A stretch of 64,000 bases of DNA, taken from contig NZ_JAAHGO010000023.1 in assembly GCF_010672455.1 (NCBI RefSeq), positions 1 through 64,000 on the forward strand, in the 5' to 3' direction. Below the pieces are notes generated by a model. It was given only the letters and a program-made list of their open reading frames with translations, was not told the origin of the DNA and did not search any database. Shown here piece by piece: positions 1 through 61,300 of the stretch. The stretch is from Okeania sp. SIO2C9 (lineage in GTDB: Bacteria > Cyanobacteriota > Cyanobacteriia > Cyanobacteriales > Microcoleaceae). The position numbers and the translations under genes were made by a program. Position 1 is the first letter of the stretch. Every line of letters begins with the position of its first letter.

Positions 1-1337
1 CAGTCAGAATCAAAAGGTAATAAAATCCAGACTGGTTTACCTAATGCTCCTGCCAAATGTGCCACTGCTGTATCTATACTAATTACTAAATCTAATTGTT
101 TTATTGCTGCTGCTGTATCAGCTAAATTCTTAAAAGATGAACCATTATTATATACTTTAGTTTGAGAGTTCAGCCATTCTAAATCTGCTGGCAATACTTC
201 CTTTTGTAAAATATAAAAATTAGCTTTACCTATACTGAGAATTTCCTCTAAATATTCAACTGGGCAAGAGCGTTTTTGGCTAGTGTTAATGTTACTCTTT
301 GTTTGCCAACATATGCCGATTTTGAGATTTTTTTCTGGAGCAGGTGGCATCTGAAAGTCAGTAGATTCAGGAACAGATAAATAAGGAATTTCAGCAGGTA
401 TAGTTTCTAAGGTAGTTGCCAAAATTTGAGGTAGACTCATTAATGGAATTTGCAGGTGAAAATCTGGTAAAGTTTCACCTTTAACAAATAATTCATCTAT
501 TCCTGAGACAGTAGTAAATAATAATTTTAGTCCTGCTTGATTACATTCAACAATTACCCGCCCTCCTAGTTTTTTCACTAGAGGAATATAGCGGATAAAT
601 TGAATGGAATCTCCCAAACCTTGTTCAGTATAAACTAACAAAGTTTTGCCCTGAAAATTTGAGCCCTCCCACAAAGTTTGAGAGAAATTACGAGAGCTAA
701 TATCTTTCTTTTGCCAGCGCCATTCATATTCATTAAATCCTTGAATAAAATTTCCTTGTTTCAGCAAGATACTTGCCAGACCAAAGTGAGCATTTGCATG
801 ATTTTTATCTAATTTAAGAGCTTGTTGATAATATTTTTGAGATTCTATAAGCTTTCCTAGCTCTAAAAATATGTTCCCTAAACCGTTATATGCTTCAGCA
901 TAATTTGGCTTAAGTTCAAGGGCTTTTTGATAATATTCAATGGCAGCTTCAAGTTGAGATTCTGTAAGTTTTCCTAGCTCTAAAAATATGTTCCCTAAAC
1001 CGTTATATGCTTCAGCATAATTTGGCTTAAGTTCAACGGCTTTTTGATAATGTTCAATGGCAGCTTCAAGTTGCTGGCTATCCTTCAGTGCTAGACCAAG
1101 ATTACTATGAATTTCGGGATTATTTGGATTTAGTTTCACAGCTTTACTGAGGTAGGAAACTGCTTCTTTTGGTTTCCCTTCTAAACCAGCAATAACCCCT
1201 AATAAATTCAGCAACTGCCAATTTTCTGTATCTCTTTCTAAGATTTGATGGCAGAATTTTTTCGCTAATTTTAAATTTCCTTTTTGATAATTCTTTACTG
1301 CGGACTTAAAAATATTTTCTAATGTCTTATTTTCCAT
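1..1337 (-). CDS. TPR protein with glycosyltransferase-like C-terminal domain (partial)
   Basis: The reading frame runs leftward from an ATG at 1335-1337 and leaves the window without a stop, so the C-terminus is missing. The N-terminal half is a run of TPR units (patterns such as NPEIHSNLGLAL and LKPNYAEAYNGLGNIFLELGK). Two units are almost identical in DNA, with a 117-bp (39-codon) period near 880-1000, which suggests recent unit duplication. From about residue 230 the protein resembles the ADP-heptose:LPS heptosyltransferase (GT9)-like domain that cyanobacteria often fuse to TPRs: LGDSIQFIRYIPLVKKLGG, KIGICWQ, ISIDTAVAHLAGALGKPVW. A role in surface glycan or protein glycosylation is inferred from the family only; donor and acceptor are unknown. 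Confidence 0.85.
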   Translation of the reverse strand, partial: MENKTLENIFKSAVKNYQKGNLKLAKKFCHQILERDTENWQLLNLLGVIAGLEGKPKEAVSYLSKAVKLNPNNPEIHSNLGLALKDSQQLEAAIEHYQKAVELKPNYAEAYNGLGNIFLELGKLTESQLEAAIEYYQKALELKPNYAEAYNGLGNIFLELGKLIESQKYYQQALKLDKNHANAHFGLASILLKQGNFIQGFNEYEWRWQKKDISSRNFSQTLWEGSNFQGKTLLVYTEQGLGDSIQFIRYIPLVKKLGGRVIVECNQAGLKLLFTTVSGIDELFVKGETLPDFHLQIPLMSLPQILATTLETIPAEIPYLSVPESTDFQMPPAPEKNLKIGICWQTKSNINTSQKRSCPVEYLEEILSIGKANFYILQKEVLPADLEWLNSQTKVYNNGSSFKNLADTAAAIKQLDLVISIDTAVAHLAGALGKPVWILLPFDSD

Positions 1338-1910: not shown

Positions 1911-3358
1911 TTGCCACATCTAATTCTAGTTTTAATTTTGTTAGTGGGAGGATTTTTTCTTGGTTCAACTCTTAGTAATCGTTATCATCATTGGGAACAA
2001 GCAAAAATCGTAAAAATTGTTGCTGGTGTAGCAGGCGATCGCCTCGAAAAAATGGCTCCAAAAGTTCGTTATATAGTAGAAGAACCATATACATATTATC
2101 AGTAGATTAATAATAAACAGGTGGAACTTCAAAGTACGAGAAATTTCGATAAATATCTCAGAATAAATTCCTCAGAAATTGAAGTAAATATTAACCAAGC
2201 TAAAGACGTTCAAAATCTCAAGGCTATTTATGTTGTAGATTTTTCCGCAGAATATCAAATTACTAACAAACTTCAAGATATCCAGGATTTTTTCTTTGAA
2301 ATTCGTCCTCCTTATGGCTATTCTTTACTTCAAAACTTTCCCCTTGAACAAAACAATCAAAGATTAATTCCTACTAACCCTGGAAATTATAGTTTTCCCT
2401 TTAATTTATCCCCTGAAAAAACCATCAATTTCAAAGTAAACTATCAAGCTCAAGGCAGACCCCGTTGGATTTATAATGCCAATAATCAACTATTATCAAA
2501 CTTCCGATTAACAGCATTAGCAAATTTTCTCAAAGCAGACTTTGCTAGTAGCATTGTTCCCACTGAAACTATCGAATCAATCAAATCAAATTAGGGTCGT
2601 AAATTTACTTGGATATTTGATGATAATGTTTCTGTCAAAAATCCTTTTGGAGTTTTTACCGCCACAGACCCAGTTAAAAATACAGGCATTTTACCCCGTC
2701 TATTAATATTAGCTCCCCTATTATTTTTATGGTGGTTAATTCTCTTATATTTTTCCCTACCTTTGAGTTGATCCAAAAATTGGGTTTAAAGCCTCCCCTT
2801 TTAAGGGGATAATAAATAAAAAATTTCATGATTAGTCAATCCTCTTCTTTTCAAGGAGAGGTAATTCTAAATTCTAAATTCTTAATTCTAAATTCTTGAA
2901 GAGACCTGGCAATATTAGGCGGAATTTTCTTTGCTTGTTTATTGACTTTGACTTACTGTACTCGCTTAATTGATGCAAAATTTGTCTGGAGTTTAATGTC
3001 TCCTATTATTAATTGATAATTGATAATTGATAATTAGGGCTTACCGATCTAATCTAAAAGCATTGACATATAAATACTTTAGCCTTTTTGTGGTCGAAAA
3101 AAGTACCTGGTTTTAAGCTCTTGATGCTCAAAAAATTAGTATTTTAGGCAATAGTTGAGCAGAAAAATCATTCTTACAATTCTTACTCCTACCTACTCTA
3201 CATTCCCCGTTCCTCCTGTCTCCTGTCTCCAGTATAGCTGTCTCCTACCCCACCAATTAGTTTCCTATAGTGGATTAACTTTAAGTATTGCCGGATTACT
3301 TTCTGTTATTTGGTTAGTAACTCGTTATTGGTATCGGTGGGATATAATTAATAATTAA
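1911..3358 (+). pseudogene. Decayed polytopic membrane protein gene (possibly CreD-like)
   Basis: One frame from 1899 to 2768 reads as a single membrane protein: an N-terminal TM segment (HLILVLILLVGGFFLG), a soluble beta-rich middle and a second TM (LPRLLILAPLLFLWWLILLYF). It is broken by in-frame TAG codons at 2103-2105 and 2592-2594. It stops at 2769 beside an intergenic-type repeat (2776-2900). Coding sense resumes at about 2905-3010 (LAILGGIFFACLLTLTYCTRLIDAKFVWSLMSP) and again after MITE copy A at 3256-3358 (LVSYSGLTLSIAGLLSVIWLVTRYWYRW). The topology recalls cyanobacterial CreD-family inner-membrane proteins, but that is a guess. It is clearly dead: two nonsense codons and two insertions. 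Confidence 0.6.
3037..3254 (+). mobile_element. MITE family 1, copy A (right end lost)
   Basis: The left end is TAATTA followed by GGGCTTACCG, and the body is nearly identical to copy B 530 bp downstream. The right terminus is missing: sequence switches at CCACCAA to the host gene fragment. The copy interrupts the C-terminal coding part of the pseudogene at 1911-3358. Confidence 0.75.
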
Positions 3359-3435
3359 TAATTAATAATTAATAATTAATAATTAATAATTAACAATTAA
3401 TAATTAACAATTAACAATTAACAATTAACAATTAC
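3347..3435. repeat. AT heptamer microsatellite
   Basis: About twelve tandem copies of a 7-bp unit (TAATTAA, drifting to TAACAAT). It directly follows the last coding fragment of the pseudogene. A related heptamer, TTGATAA, is tandem at 3012-3035 and 3519-3565, just left of MITE copies A and B. Confidence 0.85.
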
Positions 3436-5289: not shown

Positions 5290-5670
5290 AGTAATTTCTA
5301 TAGACTCCTAAACTAAATTAATTTACAATAGCAAAGTGTATCTTATCAAATTAAAAAGGAGTCAGGAGTTTTTCAAAGTCAAAAGTAAAATTTTTTAAAT
5401 GTTCAGATTTTTCCGTTGTAGTTTTAGTTAAAATCCCGGTCTAAAAAATTATTATCTAGTAAAAGCTTTTAGCAATTCAGCATTCAGCATTCAGCATTTT
5501 TTCACAGGATGCTCCCCAAACAACTTATATTTCTTCTACTGAAACCAAGAACAATACAATTTCAAAGAAATGTCTACCCAAGATGTTAGCTGAAAGCTAT
5601 TTAATAGTGAATTATTCTAGTTATTAATATCTTGATAATTTCACTGTAGTTAACGCACTTGCTCTGCCAA
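5290..5670. other. Intergenic spacer upstream of dapL
   Basis: It should contain the dapL promoter near its left end. An AGCATTC heptamer is repeated at about 5477-5497. No gene was seen. Confidence 0.4.
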
Positions 5671-7316
5671 CGCTATATTCACAAACCAAAGAAAAACCAT
5701 CATTTTGTGAAGCTCAAAAAAAACGGCAAGGTATTTCCTCTTGCATCTTCAAAAAGCGAGTGTGTAATTCCGAGGAGACCTCGGAATGAAAGACACACTC
5801 AAGACAAATCGTGATACCATTTAACCATTGGGTGTAACTCGCACCTATGCATGACTTTTTATTCAACCCAAAAACAGCATTTCGCCACTGAATATATATA
5901 GAGATACAGAGATACTCACACCATCAAAGCACCAGAAAATTTTCATCTTGTGAAGCACTCAGATAAACAAGTAGCAGACGCACAATTTACCCGCCCCATC
6001 AACACATTCATATATTTACTCATGTAGAAGCCATCGCTATATTCACAAACCAAAGAAAAACCATCATTTTGTGAAGCTCAAAAAAAACGGCAAGGTATTT
6101 CCTCTTGCATCTTCAAAAAGCGAGTGTGTAATTCCGAGGTCTCCTCGGAATGAAAGACACACTCAAGACAAATCGTGATACCATTTAACCATTGGGTGTA
6201 ACTCGCACCTATGCATGACTTTTTATTCAACCCAAAAACAGCATTTCGCCACTGAATATATATAGAGATACAGAGATACTCACACCATCAAAGCACCAGA
6301 AAATTTTCATCTTGTGAAGCACTCAGATAAACAAGTAGCAGACGCACAATTTACCCGCCCCATCAACACATTCATATATTTACTCATGTAGAAGCCATCG
6401 CTATATTCACAAACCAAAGAAAAACCATCATTTTGTGAAGCTCAAAAAAAACGGCAAGGTATTTCCTCTTGCATCTTCAAAAAGCGAGTGTGTAATTCCG
6501 AGGTCTCCTCGGAATGAAAGACACACTCAAGACAAATCGTGATACCATTTAACCATTGGGTGTAACTCGCCCCTACGCATGACTTTTTATTCAACCCAAA
6601 AACAGCATTTCGCCACTGAATATATATAGAGATACAGAGATACTCACACCATCAAAGCACCAGAAAATTTTCATCCTGTGAAGCACTCAGATAAACAAGT
6701 AGCAGACGCACAATTTACCCGCCCCATCAACACATTCATATATTTACTCATGTAGAAGCCAACGCTATATTCACAAACCAAAGAAAAACCATCATTTTGT
6801 GAAGCTCAAAAAAAACGGCAAGGTATTTCCTCTTGCATCTTCAAAAAGCGAGTGTGTAATTCCGAGGTCTCCTCGGAATGAAAGACACACTCAAGACAAA
6901 TCGTGATACCATTTAACCATTGGGTGTAACTCGCCCCTACGCATGACTTTTTATTCAACCCAAAAACAGCATTTCGCCACTGAATATATATAGAGATACA
7001 GAGATACTCACACCATCAAAGCACCAGAAAATTTTCATCCTGTGAAGCACTCAGATAAACAAGTAGCAGACGCACAATTTACCCGCCCCATCAACACATT
7101 CATATATTTACTCATGTAGAAGCCATCGCTATATTCACAAACCAAAGAAAAGTTATCATTTTGTGAAGCTCAAAAAAAGCGGCAAGGTATTTTCTCTTGC
7201 ATCCTCAAAAAGCGAGTGTGTAATTCCGAGGTCTCCTCGGAATTACACACTCAAGACAAATCGTGATACCATGTAATCATTGGGTATTACTCGCCCCTAC
7301 GCATGACTTTTTATTC
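5671..7316. repeat. 364-bp tandem array (four full units plus a diverged partial fifth)
   Basis: Units start (CGCTATATTCAC) at 5671, 6035, 6399, 6763 and 7127, an exact 364-bp period. The first four are almost identical; the fifth is shorter and more diverged and fades after about 7316. No frame stays open through a unit, so it is not a coding repeat. Each unit holds a strong hairpin with arms GAGTGTGT...ATTCCGAGG and CCTCGGAAT...ACACACTC around a 3-base loop. In the partial fifth unit (about 7214-7252) the arms are a perfect 18-bp stem. In unit 1 the hairpin centre reads GAGAC, in units 2-5 GTCTC, i.e. the centre is inverted. Spacing and unit size exclude CRISPR. Function is unknown; a tandem non-coding RNA is possible. 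Confidence 0.9.
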
Positions 7317-8261
7317 AACTACAGAAAAACTTATATTTTGCGTTGATACTTAATCCAAAAATCATTACCACTCAGCAACGCCCAAATCAATACTTTTGAC
7401 TTTAAAATGCATGACTTTTAACTTCCGCGTAGCAGCACTAGCTATTTGTAGCAAATATTTATCAATTTGCTATAAGAACTCCATAAGCAATTTCCCTTTT
7501 CCTAGATCATGCTGCACAAACAACATAGCTGCCTTCTTCAATGAATTTGACTAAAGTTATCAAAATAACATGGGTCTAAAACCCCGCTTTTAAGGTGAAA
7601 TATTTTTGGAGAGTTGCTCAAATCCCCGTTACAAAAATAACTGTCTTGAGTGTGTCTTACATTCTGAGGGGACCTCAGAATTACACACTCGCTTCTGACT
7701 TCTGACTTCGTTAAAGCACTACACATTAAGGTGTTTGACATGAATAGAAACTGTTTGCGCAGCATTCCGTAGGAAAACCCTTTTGTATTTCCCTGTTGCC
7801 TTGCACGCAGCACTATAAAAGTAATTAAACATTTTAATTAAAACTTATAAAGTTTAGATATTGTGTTAATAATGTAGAAAAGAAAGCCTGAAAAGAATAA
7901 ATAAATAATCAACACTAAAAATCTAAATCTAAACCTAAGAAACTTCACTTGTGCCTCTTAAATTTATCTCCAACCAAATCAAAAAAATCTACTTCAAAAA
8001 TTCTATATCAAATATCAAAGTTATATACAAAACCCAGATTTATGCACCCTAAAAAAATAGATCATTATAATTAAACTTCATCACTAGATTCAGATACAAT
8101 CTCAACTAAATAATTGTACCAATTAATATTCACTTTCCAAAGACCAAAGCTATTTATCAAAAGTTCATATATACTACCAAAAACCAACAATTGATAGATA
8201 TTTAGATATCAGTTAAATATCTGAAATTTTCAACCAAAATAAAGTTAAAACGATTTGCAGT
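7317..8261. other. Intergenic region with dispersed repeats
   Basis: No gene was recognised. Three repeats are visible. About 7379-7440 is one half of the GTAGCGGCACTAG element seen complete at 33339-33638. About 7556-7640 is inverted relative to 22974-23060. A second copy of the array hairpin, in inverse orientation, lies at about 7648-7691 (GAGTGTGT...ACACACTC with a GGACC centre). The rest (7800-8260) is plain AT-rich DNA. A 91-codon leftward ORF over this region is repeat sequence and is not believed. Confidence 0.55.
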
Positions 8262-50320: not shown

Positions 50321-50502
50321 AAACGAAGAAAAAAGAAGGAATAAGGAAAAATAAATAAAGAAAATAGATGAATCTATAGACAGTTAAATATTTTTTTGTG
50401 GCAGTTCTGTAAATTACAATTTCTTGCTTTGGATTTGGAAACCAAACGCCTACGAAAAATATTAAAACTTCCTTCTTCCTTTGATTTTGGAAACCAAAAT
50501 TC
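50321..50502. other. Spacer before the 117-bp array
   Basis: AT-rich, containing two copies of TTGGAAACCAAA (50434 and 50487), each beside CCTTCTTCC runs. It seems related to the array that follows. No gene. Confidence 0.4.
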
Positions 50503-50855
50503 TACAAAAAAATATTACAAATTTATGATTTATTCTGCGCTATTGCGGTGGGTTGGGAAGGTAAACCCCTAGGATAAAATGTTCCTTATTTCTTTCCTTT
50601 TTCCTTCTTCCTTAATTCTACGAAAAAAATATTACAAATTTATGATTTATTCTGCGCTATTGCGGTGGGTTGGGAAGGTAAACCCCTAGGATAAAATGTT
50701 CCTTATTTCTTTCCTTTTTCCTTCTTCCTTAATTCTAGAAAAAAATATTACAAATTTCTGATTTATTTTGCGCTATTGCGGTGGATTGGGAAAGCAAACC
50801 CCTAGGATAAAATGTTCCTTATTTCTTTCCTTCTTCCTTCTTCCCTCTTCCTTCT
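50503..50855. repeat. 117-bp tandem repeat, three copies
   Basis: The marker ATTACAAATT recurs at 50514, 50631 and 50747 (periods 117 and 116). Each unit contains GCGCTATTGCGGTGG, a GGTAAACCCCTAGG stretch and a CCTTCTTCC heptamer run. The first two units are nearly identical, the third diverges. The array ends 5 bp before the mutL stop. Confidence 0.85.
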
Positions 50856-56547: not shown

Positions 56548-56820
56548 CAAGATGCTAATCCCGCAAAACACATATTTTATTCTTCGGGGGAGTAGCAATT
56601 GTGCAAGAAACCCCGTTAAAGTATTTGTGATCGCTGTACTAATTAAGTCTCTCTGACAAAAGAAGTCTGAAACCCTTGATTTATCGTTCTAAATTTCTGT
56701 ACCAAATAAACTAAAGTTAGATTGGTACACTTATTAATATACAAAAACCTCACAAATGCTGAAGCCTATAACTCATTCATAGTGAGTATTTCAGCCTTAG
56801 CGTGGTTTTCTGTACAGTTG
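56548..56820. other. Spacer between kinase gene and IS1182-like element
   Basis: No gene was believed; a rightward 82-codon frame from 56722 runs across the element boundary at 56821 and has no family match. The element inserts within TTG here. Confidence 0.4.
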
Positions 56821-56854
56821 CTGATACTGTTGATGAACTTAACAAAAGAGATGT

Positions 56855-56877
56855 ATTCGCGATTTATCTTCGCGAAT
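56855..56877. repeat. Palindromic site 1, ATTCGCGA-N7-TCGCGAAT
   Basis: Arms ATTCGCGA and TCGCGAAT around the spacer TTTATCT. The exact identity of the 42-bp terminal repeat stops at the edge of this spacer. Confidence 0.85.
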
Positions 56878-57127
56878 CTAGCTCTTCACTCCGATCTCTT
56901 TCACGGTGACAAAAACTCCGTTCTCTATCTACTTTCAAGATTGATTATTAAGTCAATTATTGAAACATGATTTCATTATTGGCTCTGCCTCTAATAATCG
57001 CTAGTACCAAGCTCCGAAATCTATGCTATGACTATAAAAATGGGCGATTAACTGAAAATTATTATTCATTCTATTTGCTTATTGTCACCACCTTTGATGG
57101 TGTGTTGTCACCCTTTGATATCGCTCG

Positions 57128-58780
57128 CTAATCAGGAGCTAACTGGGCAAAAGAAGAAACACGAGTTTGAGCCAATGGTACACCTTGAAACCAAGCTTCG
57201 AGGCGAATCATATTCATTGCAGTTGCGGTCAATATATGTTGTAAATGAACTTTCTCCAAACCTACATAACGGCATTTGCGCAAACCTAAACCACGAACAC
57301 CTTGAGAAATTGTACCTTCGACTCCGGCACGTTGATTGTACTGTTTTAACCATCTTTTGTTTGTTTGCTGTTTTCGTCTTTTGACAATAGCCAGATGTTC
57401 CTCTTTTGGACGCAGAGTAATTTCTCTAGGCTCGGTTGCCGAGCGTGTACATAGATGACGAAATAGGCATTCTCGACAAGCCTTTCTGGGAAATTTAACT
57501 CCAATAACTGTATTATCCCATTGATCTTTGTGAACACTCCATTTCTTGGTACTTTTTACTCCTTGAGGACAAGTAACCTGCTGCGTTTTCCAATTGATTT
57601 TGAATTGATTAATATCGTAAGCATTTTTGTCTTTTGATTGCCAACTTACATTCTCACGAACTGGTCCGATTAGTTCCAGCTCATGTTTTTGCTGACTCTC
57701 AACCAACAAAGTAGCATCTACATAACCTGCATCAACTAAGTGTTGTTTAGGTAATAATTCTTTGTCAGCTAAAGATTGATGAATCTCTTCTGTTTGGTCT
57801 ACATCAGATAGATGAGCTTGGGTAGTCTCGATATTAGTAATAAGATGAATTTGATTTTTGTCACAAGTTTCCGTCAGATGTACCTTGTAGCCTATCCAAG
57901 TGGTATGACGCTTGCTACCATAACGAGCTTCTGTGTCATAAGGAGAGTTGCTTCTTAACCCAGAAGGAGGTAAGTCTTGATGATTGCGCCAATGAAGTTC
58001 ACCATTATCTATCCAATATTGGTGTATCCAAGTAATTCGCAGAGTTTCTATTGCGGGAATTTCCCATAACCATAAAGGTGTATTTGGGTTGTCGTAAATT
58101 TCTTCTAAAATTCTCATTCCGTCGCACCCGATAGTGAGTGCCATGATTGTACGAGCTTCAGTTCCTCTAGGAAGACGGGATTCTTCCACTGGTCTGCTGT
58201 AGCGGTCAAACCAATCTTTTTCTACTACATTTGACAACCAATTTGGAGCTACTATAGCTAAAGCATTTAAAGCTGCTCTTAAAGTTTCTCCTACACATTC
58301 GAGTCGGTTGAGATTACGAATTGCAGCTAAGATATGAGTGGAATCAGTTCGAGCTTTTCCCTTGGCCTTGAGGAATCCTAGTTCTTGGCAGCGTTCTAAA
58401 AGTTTGTCTAGTAAGAGCTGTTCTTTACTTCCACTGAGTAATCGAGAGCGAAATAAACTTAAAACAGAAAAGTCAAAACCAGGGTCGGTTAGTTCTAGCC
58501 CTAAAGCGTACTTCCAGTCAATACGGCCTGCTACTGCTTCGGCAGCACCTCTATCGGATAAATTAGCCATATACTGCATCACACATACTAATGCTAAATT
58601 CCCAGGATGCAAGGCTGGTTGTCCTTCAATTGAATAGAGTTCTGCAAAATCGGTATCCTGATAAAATATACCTAATTCATCTCGAATGGTCATGTAGAGA
58701 TTCCCTTTGGGAAAAGCTTGGTGTGCTATTTCTTTTGTTAAGGGTGGAACAGGTTTCATCGATTGAGGATGTAGAGCCAT
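57128..58780 (-). CDS. IS1182-family transposase
   Basis: A 550-aa DDE transposase. The N-terminal region (LHPGNLALVCVMQYMANLSDRGAAEAVAGRIDWKYALGLELTDPGFDFSVLSLFRSRLL) is the family's DUF772-type domain. The catalytic acids are in KARTDSTHI (D146), HLVDAGYVDA and RAGVEGTISQGVRGLGLRKCRYVG. A Cys-rich stretch (CRECLFRHLC) precedes the last motif. The frame is intact and of normal length, so the element may still be active. Confidence 0.95.
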   Translation of the reverse strand: MALHPQSMKPVPPLTKEIAHQAFPKGNLYMTIRDELGIFYQDTDFAELYSIEGQPALHPGNLALVCVMQYMANLSDRGAAEAVAGRIDWKYALGLELTDPGFDFSVLSLFRSRLLSGSKEQLLLDKLLERCQELGFLKAKGKARTDSTHILAAIRNLNRLECVGETLRAALNALAIVAPNWLSNVVEKDWFDRYSRPVEESRLPRGTEARTIMALTIGCDGMRILEEIYDNPNTPLWLWEIPAIETLRITWIHQYWIDNGELHWRNHQDLPPSGLRSNSPYDTEARYGSKRHTTWIGYKVHLTETCDKNQIHLITNIETTQAHLSDVDQTEEIHQSLADKELLPKQHLVDAGYVDATLLVESQQKHELELIGPVRENVSWQSKDKNAYDINQFKINWKTQQVTCPQGVKSTKKWSVHKDQWDNTVIGVKFPRKACRECLFRHLCTRSATEPREITLRPKEEHLAIVKRRKQQTNKRWLKQYNQRAGVEGTISQGVRGLGLRKCRYVGLEKVHLQHILTATAMNMIRLEAWFQGVPLAQTRVSSFAQLAPD

Positions 58781-58833
58781 AATCTTTATCAGGACTTACG
58801 CAATCTTTCAACATTTGTTAAACTTAGTTTATA

Positions 58834-58856
58834 CTTCGCGAATATAAATCGCGAAT
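58834..58856. repeat. Palindromic site 2, CTTCGCGA-N7-TCGCGAAT
   Basis: Arms CTTCGCGA and TCGCGAAT around the spacer ATATAAA, 32 bp before the passenger gene and 54 bp beyond the transposase start. On the reverse strand its spacer (TTTATAT) differs from site 1 at one base. Confidence 0.85.
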
Positions 58857-58887
58857 AATCTTCCCCTTTTCTTAATGTTTCTCCTGT

Positions 58888-59289
58888 ATGAATCAAAAAC
58901 AAGCATCATCAGACCAAATTGAACGAATTGATCGTATCACATCCGCGATCGCTACTCTTGAGAACCAAAAAAAACAAATTATTGCTCAAGGTGAAGTTGC
59001 TCCTCCAGGGACAGTAGTTTCTCGCTATCAAGTACGACAGCAGCAAAACATTTATTGGTACTACAAACTTCAAGCACAAGAGCCAATTTTTCCTAAAGCC
59101 AATGAGACTAGGAGTTTTAGTAAATATAAGCATTTAGGAAAACCTGGTAGTCAAGCTCATATTACCGCAGTAATGCAGGTGGTCAGACGTTCTCAAATTG
59201 ATGAAATTCAACGTACTATTGATACTTTGTCACAAAATTTATTGGACATTGGTTTTGACGAGCAACCAAAACAAAAATCAAATAATTAA
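58888..59289 (+). CDS. Small passenger protein (DUF6788-like)
   Basis: A 133-aa ORF. The N-terminus is helical (SSDQIERIDRITSAIATLENQKKQIIAQGEVAPPGTVV). The middle, RYQVRQQQNIYWYYKLQAQEPIFPKANETRSFSKYKHLGKPGSQAHITAV, has the tyrosine-rich YWYYKL...KYKHLGK pattern of DUF6788-type proteins often found in or near mobile elements. The C-terminus is again helical. It lies inside the IS1182-like element, opposite the transposase, between palindromic sites 2 and 3. It may be a transposition accessory or a hitch-hiking gene. Function is unknown. Confidence 0.7.
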   Translation: MNQKQASSDQIERIDRITSAIATLENQKKQIIAQGEVAPPGTVVSRYQVRQQQNIYWYYKLQAQEPIFPKANETRSFSKYKHLGKPGSQAHITAVMQVVRRSQIDEIQRTIDTLSQNLLDIGFDEQPKQKSNN

Positions 59290-59297
59290 CTGGACAT

Positions 59298-59320
59298 ATT
59301 CGCGGATAATATTCGCGAAT
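59298..59320. repeat. Palindromic site 3, ATTCGCGG-N7-TCGCGAAT
   Basis: Arms ATTCGCGG and TCGCGAAT around the spacer ATAATAT, 8 bp after the passenger gene stop. It could also fold as a terminator hairpin, followed by ACATCTCTTTTG. The right 42-bp terminal repeat begins at its second arm. Confidence 0.85.
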
Positions 59321-59390
59321 ACATCTCTTTTGTTAAGTTCATCAACAGTATCAGTTGCTACTCAAACCCCAGAACGTAAATTCACGAATT

Positions 59391-61106: not shown

Positions 61107-61109
61107 AAG

Positions 61110-61203
61110 AAGGAAGAAGGAAGAAGGAAGAAGGAAGAAGGAAAGAAGGAAGAAGGGAGAAGGGAGAAGGGAGAAGGGAGAAGGGAGAAGGGAGAAGGGA
61201 GAA
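61110..61203. repeat. GAAGGAA / GAAGGGA heptamer run
   Basis: About four copies of GAAGGAA then seven of GAAGGGA, starting 4 bp after the stop of the vWA gene. Similar purine repeats continue to about 61280 at longer spacing. The run separates the first two genes of the cluster. Confidence 0.9.
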
Positions 61204-61300
61204 GTAAAAATCAAGGAATCAAATAAGGAAGGAATCAAATAAGGAAGGAAGAAGGAAAAAGGCAGAAGAAAGGAAGAAGTAAAAATCAAGGAATTAAATT

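Follow-up and report, generated by a model that had tools for sequence, protein, structure and literature searches.

What does a second gene do inside an insertion sequence (IS) when it is accompanied by palindromes at both ends of the element? The question arises from a 2,532-bp element in a 64,000-nucleotide stretch of DNA from Okeania sp. SIO2C9 (contig NZ_JAAHGO010000023.1, positions 1 to 64,000; this whole stretch is called the window), whose inverted ends enclose an IS1182 transposase gene, a small accessory gene that we call the passenger, and three palindromes, P1 to P3. Judging from sequence comparison, we consider it probable that this is an intact IS1182-family IS carrying a portable module, made of a predicted DNA-binding accessory protein and three sites, which would regulate itself and act at the IS ends. 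The element is built as follows, with strands given where one applies:

56822..59353: IS1182-family element with accessory module, 2,532 bp; 41-bp perfect inverted ends, outer 5-bp direct repeat, transposase of NF033551
56822..56862, plus strand: left terminal inverted repeat, 41 bp, with the motif TGATACTGTTG common to the ends of related IS1182 elements
56855..56877: palindrome P1 at the transposase-side end, core 35 nt from the terminus
57128..58780, minus strand: IS1182 transposase, 550 aa, from its open reading frame and profile matches
58834..58856: palindrome P2 between the divergent genes, in the upstream region common to both, one mismatch, its core lying 53 nt before the passenger ATG
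58888..59289, plus strand: passenger (accessory) gene, an open reading frame of 133 aa with no Pfam family
59298..59320: palindrome P3 at the passenger-side end, after the passenger, one mismatch, core 35 nt from the terminus
59313..59353, minus strand: right terminal inverted repeat, 41 bp, exact inverse of the left arm

An earlier note on this DNA had described a facing pair of palindromes beside the transposase, which we recovered as P1 and P2, and a third palindrome, P3, follows the passenger. The dyad spans 23 nt and reads TTCGCG-n9-CGCGAA, with variants. Among 72 distinct passenger-adjacent sites, TT at positions 2-3, C at 6, G at 18 and AA at 21-22 were invariant, which was partly imposed by the search pattern, while the A+T-rich middle was free to vary. 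To count dyads around the gene, we used loci fetched as the best match per genome for many genomes, as chosen multi-copy cases and from some plasmid records, which comprised 69 distinct passenger places, 50 of them intact, and 47 distinct proteins that were counted. A dyad occurred 0-140 nt after the passenger stop codon in 41 of the 47 (observed at 7-88 nt; 0.65 expected from shuffles) and 10-120 nt upstream of the passenger ATG in 38 (core 28-76 nt upstream; 0.5 expected), with both present in 37. Upon examining 15 elements with estimated limits, 12 of which were delimited by comparing copies and two of which (G336 and G300) have doubtful limits, we found a dyad inside both IS ends in 11, and in nine of these 11 the two distances to the terminus differed by at most 7 nt (35/35 in the window, 34/34 in L129, 36/36 in L134, 37/37 in G355 and 51/51 in G315).

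The dyads proved to be tightly associated with the passenger. In 72 loci fetched by their transposase (30 ISKra4, 30 IS4_1 and 12 IS1182; best search matches plus earlier IS1182 finds), at least two strict dyads were present at 11/11 loci with the passenger and at 1/61 without it (Fisher 4e-12, a value that overstates independence and so weakens the case, since several passenger loci come from the motif-discovery genomes and some are near copies). The pattern held within each group, with at least two strict dyads at 5/5 ISKra4, 3/3 IS4_1 and 3/3 IS1182 loci that have the passenger, against 0/25, 1/27 and 0/9 of those that lack it. Under the looser threshold of at least one dyad, the counts were 11/11 with the passenger and 5/61 without it (ISKra4 0/25, IS4_1 5/27, IS1182 0/9).

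The passenger is not confined to IS1182. We found relatives in 60 of 388 genomes of the order (E <= 1e-15), in 11 of 61 genomes of the family (E <= 0.001), and in 40 plasmid records, all with cyanobacterial names; phage records gave no match, and none of 22 pattern matches in IMG/VR was confirmed. In 12 genomes with more than one copy, the copy pairs were repeats of about 1.5-2.9 kb containing the passenger, and such multi-copy elements had near-identical copies in other species (99-100%). The transposases found with it exceeded the NCBIfam cut-offs for IS1182, ISKra4, IS4 NF033592, IS4 NF033590 and the IS701-like NF041680, and further passenger-linked frames matched DUF6399 (Pfam, above cut-off) and, weakly, DDE_5 (below cut-off). 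What makes the module portable is that one protein family, with one type of site, occurs in ISs with at least five curated DDE transposase types. On a tree of 47 passenger proteins, the transposase label changed 11 times, against a minimum of 7 and a shuffled mean of 31.6 (0 of 200 shuffles as low), with much of the excess over the minimum due to seven rows without a recognised transposase, indicating that the association of passenger and transposase is stable and that exchanges have been few. IS1182 passengers neighbour ISKra4 passengers on this tree (97/94), and TTCGCG arms are common to both although their IS ends differ. The form of the dyad goes with the type of passenger also in IS4_1, where 10 of 12 distinct sites have one off-dyad base in common. 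The occurrence of the gene-and-palindrome set in unrelated ISs suggests a plug-in controller of transposition. In its widest form, which we advance tentatively as a serious possibility, at least five unrelated DDE transposase families of cyanobacteria, and perhaps seven, would have acquired a self-regulated end-recognition module, one protein family with its three-site layout, as part of their transposition machinery, so that one control protein would be common to unrelated ISs. In a literature search by title and abstract opening, confined largely to openly accessible papers and not extending to ISfinder, no report emerged of a passenger that these IS families have in common together with linked palindromes. 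One locus, L169 (G326), has a passenger and an extra dyad ~220 nt upstream of P2 with no recognised transposase nearby, and may be a transposase-less derivative.

Several statements of the earlier note about the gene content were confirmed. IS1182 membership is supported by NCBIfam NF033551 (333.5 bits, cut-off 270), with the Pfam domains DDE_Tnp_1_6 and DUF772 in the transposase; the second gene does lie on the opposite strand, at 58888-59289 (+) with 133 aa; and it belongs inside the terminal repeats and has been retained along with the element in two further genera. In the first of these, L129 (G174) has the same layout, ends and palindromes, with a transposase 82% and a passenger 72% identical to those of the window; in the second, L134 (G311) has a passenger 70% identical and a partial transposase that matches only over residues 326-550. 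The passenger appears to be under selection between the window and L129, with a nonsynonymous divergence (dN) of 0.18 and a synonymous divergence (dS) of 0.65; the corresponding dN/dS for the transposase is 0.11/0.91. The label DUF6788-like, by contrast, did not hold: 0 of 25 passenger relatives matched that family at E <= 0.1, it was not among the 17 Pfam families listed for them at this threshold, and the window protein did not match it at E <= 1. The passenger matched no Pfam or NCBIfam family above cut-off, and its best match among solved structures reached only E 0.049, which is no match.

The check on whether the passenger is always present gave a negative answer. The close IS1182 relatives L130-L133 (transposase 64-78% identical) lack both the passenger and the palindromes, and on the transposase tree passenger-bearing and passenger-less elements are mixed in one set of six (support 100/100), three with and three without. 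A search for further copies in the element's own genome (10.9 Mb, 317 contigs) found none. Truncated or decayed copies occur on three other Okeania contigs (L033, L034 and L035); passenger sequence is present in each of them, and the passenger genes of L034 and L035 are broken. Among other relatives, L071 (685-3248, G008; 59% identity) has a different extra frame of ~185 aa (722-1276, minus strand) inside its inverted ends, and the simple IS1182 elements L072 (2336-2362) and L074 (1233-1259) show a different palindrome, TGTCTGAGGGGT...ACCCCTCAGACA, adjoining one terminal repeat only.

How might such a module work? The passenger protein would most likely be a sequence-specific DNA binder that reads TTCGCG-n9-CGCGAA, probably as a dimer. 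By binding P2 before its own gene, and in the window also before the divergent transposase gene, it would limit expression, while by binding P1 and P3 just inside the IS ends it could shape or gate the complex of transposase and ends. An auto-regulated end-binding protein would need such a layout of three sites, with one ahead of its gene and one within each end. Overall, we regard DNA binding by the passenger as likely, its autoregulation as likely, and a role at the IS ends as probable, and, as between help and restraint, we lean towards both, in that the module would limit its own expression and would also have an architectural part to play at the ends. The suggestion of the earlier note that the passenger might assist or regulate transposition is strengthened by the linked palindromes, and a role of either kind is still something that we infer. 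The setting of P2 differs between elements: in the window it lies between divergent genes, and in ISKra4 elements the transposase lies upstream and co-directional, with P2 in the short gap before the passenger. Several of these ISKra4 P2 sites contain TATAAT in their middle, such that a bound protein would cover the -10 element.

Beside the dependence among loci mentioned above, a number of observations weigh against this picture. TATAAT-like words are only weakly enriched in P2 relative to P3 (12/31 versus 5/37, p 0.02), and promoter-like matches around P2 of the window are not above chance (2 versus 2.4 in shuffles). A structure model of the passenger built from two sequences reached a mean confidence score (pLDDT) of only 66.6, with an unreliable middle below 50 and two confident helices at about 2-33 and 89-120, and no known DNA-binding fold was seen in this poor model, for which no fold search was made. 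Nor are the sites universal. Within the limits used, P3 is missing in 6/47 and P2 in 9/47 passengers, both being absent in five of the ten deficient ones (L023, L028, L009, L017 and L196, the upstream sequence available for L028 being only 38 nt long); a dyad occurs at one end only in 3/15 elements and at neither end in 1/15 (L195); and, conversely, among the passenger-less IS4_1 loci four have one dyad and one has two.

Other explanations of the passenger and its palindromes deserve consideration. The palindromes could form hairpins, in RNA or in DNA, and insulate the element as end terminators or read-through blocks, with the passenger as unrelated cargo. P3 of the window is indeed terminator-like, with 11 pairs and a T-rich tail (1 found versus 0.5 expected), perfect 8-bp dyads make up 19/72 distinct sites, and L072 and L074 have their different palindrome beside one end. 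However, the dyads track the passenger and not the transposase (11/11 versus 1/61), P2 stands upstream of a start codon, a senseless place for a terminator, and 53/72 sites are imperfect, with the same unpaired base kept in 10/12 distinct IS4_1 sites, which favours a protein site over a pure hairpin; we judge insulation by hairpins to be quite improbable. Very improbable, in our view, is that P2, the passenger and P3 form a cassette that is a mobile parasite of ISs, in which the passenger would act on the palindromes to move the cassette between elements. While the cassette with both flanking dyads does occur in ISs of several unrelated transposase types, and its presence varies among close IS1182 relatives, such a parasite would have no need of an extra dyad at the far, transposase-side end at a matching distance. 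Furthermore, the strong clustering of transposase types on the passenger tree (11 changes, minimum 7, shuffled 31.6) indicates that moves between types are rare, and the Pfam and NCBIfam scans matched the passenger to no recombinase or nuclease family.

Closer to the self-regulated module that we favour is the view of the passenger as a selfish brake, which would bind the IS ends only for repression or for immunity to further copies and have no role in the reaction. The placement of P2 fits autorepression, end binding could occlude the transposase, and end-binding repressors of this sort are known, IS1 InsA among them; yet in some genomes ISs with the passenger have multiplied to many near-identical copies, from which it appears that the passenger does not shut transposition down. 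We take such a brake to be unlikely, although worth keeping in mind, as sequence leaves it inseparable from a module that takes part in transposition.

End-binding regulators of transposons include InsA of IS1, TnpR of Tn3 and the repressor-operator system of phage Mu. If our interpretation holds, the passenger would resemble these as a small protein acting on a promoter site and on the element ends, but it differs from them in showing no sequence similarity in the Pfam and NCBIfam scans, and in that protein and sites are common to unrelated transposase families. TnpB, an RNA-guided nuclease of known fold, is common to IS200/IS605 and IS607; the passenger is likewise an accessory gene found with unrelated transposase families, but unlike TnpB it represents a family of 130-aa proteins that lacks a known fold and has DNA sites of its own. 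ISKra4-group elements with extra genes are on record, and some cyanobacterial ISKra4 elements studied here carry the passenger family and its dyads, whereas the accessible part of the published description of the group makes no mention of linked palindromes or of a gene common to several IS families. IS families are usually treated as each having its own ends and its own control. If the module works as proposed, transposition control would be exchangeable as a part between unrelated IS families, cross-talk between unrelated ISs in one cell would become possible, a conserved family without a Pfam match would gain a function, and a ready-made handle on transposition in cyanobacteria would be at hand.

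Where exactly does the element end? Its flanks contain the following features:

56587..56821: MITE-A, a short repeat serving as IS target, main part; left limit approximate, placed by the resemblance of its left end to its right end
56817..56821: target duplication GTTGC, left copy; same arrangement in L120/L148 (GTTGC) and L122 (ATTGC)
59354..59358: target duplication GTTGC, right copy
59354..59370: MITE-A, terminal piece; congeneric genomes are collinear from 59373

The inverted arms at 56821-56862 and 59313-59354 are exactly complementary over the full 42 bp that the earlier note had reported (about 3e-15 such 42-mer pairs expected by chance in 64 kb, a rough estimate), and their similarity extends into the palindromes (57 nt, 91%). 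Taken as 41-bp arms that end at 56822 and 59353, they are flanked by the 5-bp direct repeat GTTGC at 56817-56821 and 59354-59358. The TTG that the note saw outside each arm is present, but we rejected it as the complete target duplication, for which GTTGC is the better parse. Of the two boundaries that it had offered, the outer one (56821/59354) stands to within 1 bp, whereas the inner one (56855/58856) is rejected because related IS1182 elements terminate at the outer TGATACTGTTG motif. Relatives in other genera (L129-L133 and others) have ends that start TGATACTG(T/C)TG and are homologous terminal inverted repeats. The insertion is best parsed as 56822-59353, with a 5-bp target duplication GTTGC, within the end of MITE-A. 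Direct repeats are arranged in the same way at L120/L148 (G179) and L122 (G234), and in all of these, as in the window, the interior of MITE-A lies on one flank and its terminus on the other. Joining the two window flanks yields a 42-nt match to an uninterrupted MITE-A copy in another genome (L057). In two congeners (G041 and G042), collinearity with the window starts only at 59373, as expected if the inserted DNA stops near 59370, and the DNA upstream of the insertion site is repetitive; an orthologue of the left flank was not found in the four congeners searched. Counting against a 5-bp duplication, none was seen at the passenger-bearing L129 (intact) and L134.

A longer right end is an alternative to this parse. 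The IS could reach 16-17 bp further, to 59370, with an inverted repeat starting GGGGTTTGAGTAGCAAC and a left end that has lost this piece. The passenger-less L130-L133 show GGGGTTTGAGTAGCA(A) on the outer side of TGATACTG at the two ends, fully or nearly, with a MITE-A terminus lying beyond each end, by which the true inverted repeat could be longer, and other single ends, as well as extended ends of a similar kind in L071, point the same way. Symmetric MITE-A arms surround L130-L133, and L129 and L134 sit in other sequence: both passenger-bearing elements have unrelated sequence at that place at both ends. This absence, together with the exact 5-bp direct repeats in the window, L120/L148 and L122, which have the repeat interior on one side and its terminus on the other, demotes an end at 59370 to an unlikely option, and the 42-nt match of the joined flanks to L057 also speaks against it. 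IS1272, an IS1182-family element of staphylococci, reportedly replaces inverted-repeat targets and leaves no duplication (PMC5678879). The window element is similar in having inverted ends, may be similar in a target tied to inverted-repeat structure, and differs in its accessory gene, subterminal dyads and 5-bp target duplication.

MITE-A itself (ends GGGGTTTGAGTAGCAACTGTRCAG; window, L057, L087, L088, L090 and L093) recurs in several genera as a repeated landing site of this IS1182 group. Passenger-less IS1182 relatives or single ends bordered by its terminus were seen at L130-L133, L139-L145, L147 and L148, and L130-L133, with that terminus at both ends or nearly, give the impression that the repeat has had its interior replaced. 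Elsewhere in the window we noted a tandem array at 5666-7319 with a 364-bp unit (4.6 copies, 98% matches), tandem repeats with 117-bp units at 837-1073 and 50498-50844 (two and three copies, 96%) whose sequences differ, and many heptamer repeat arrays, at 3344-3434, 61107-61204 and other places.
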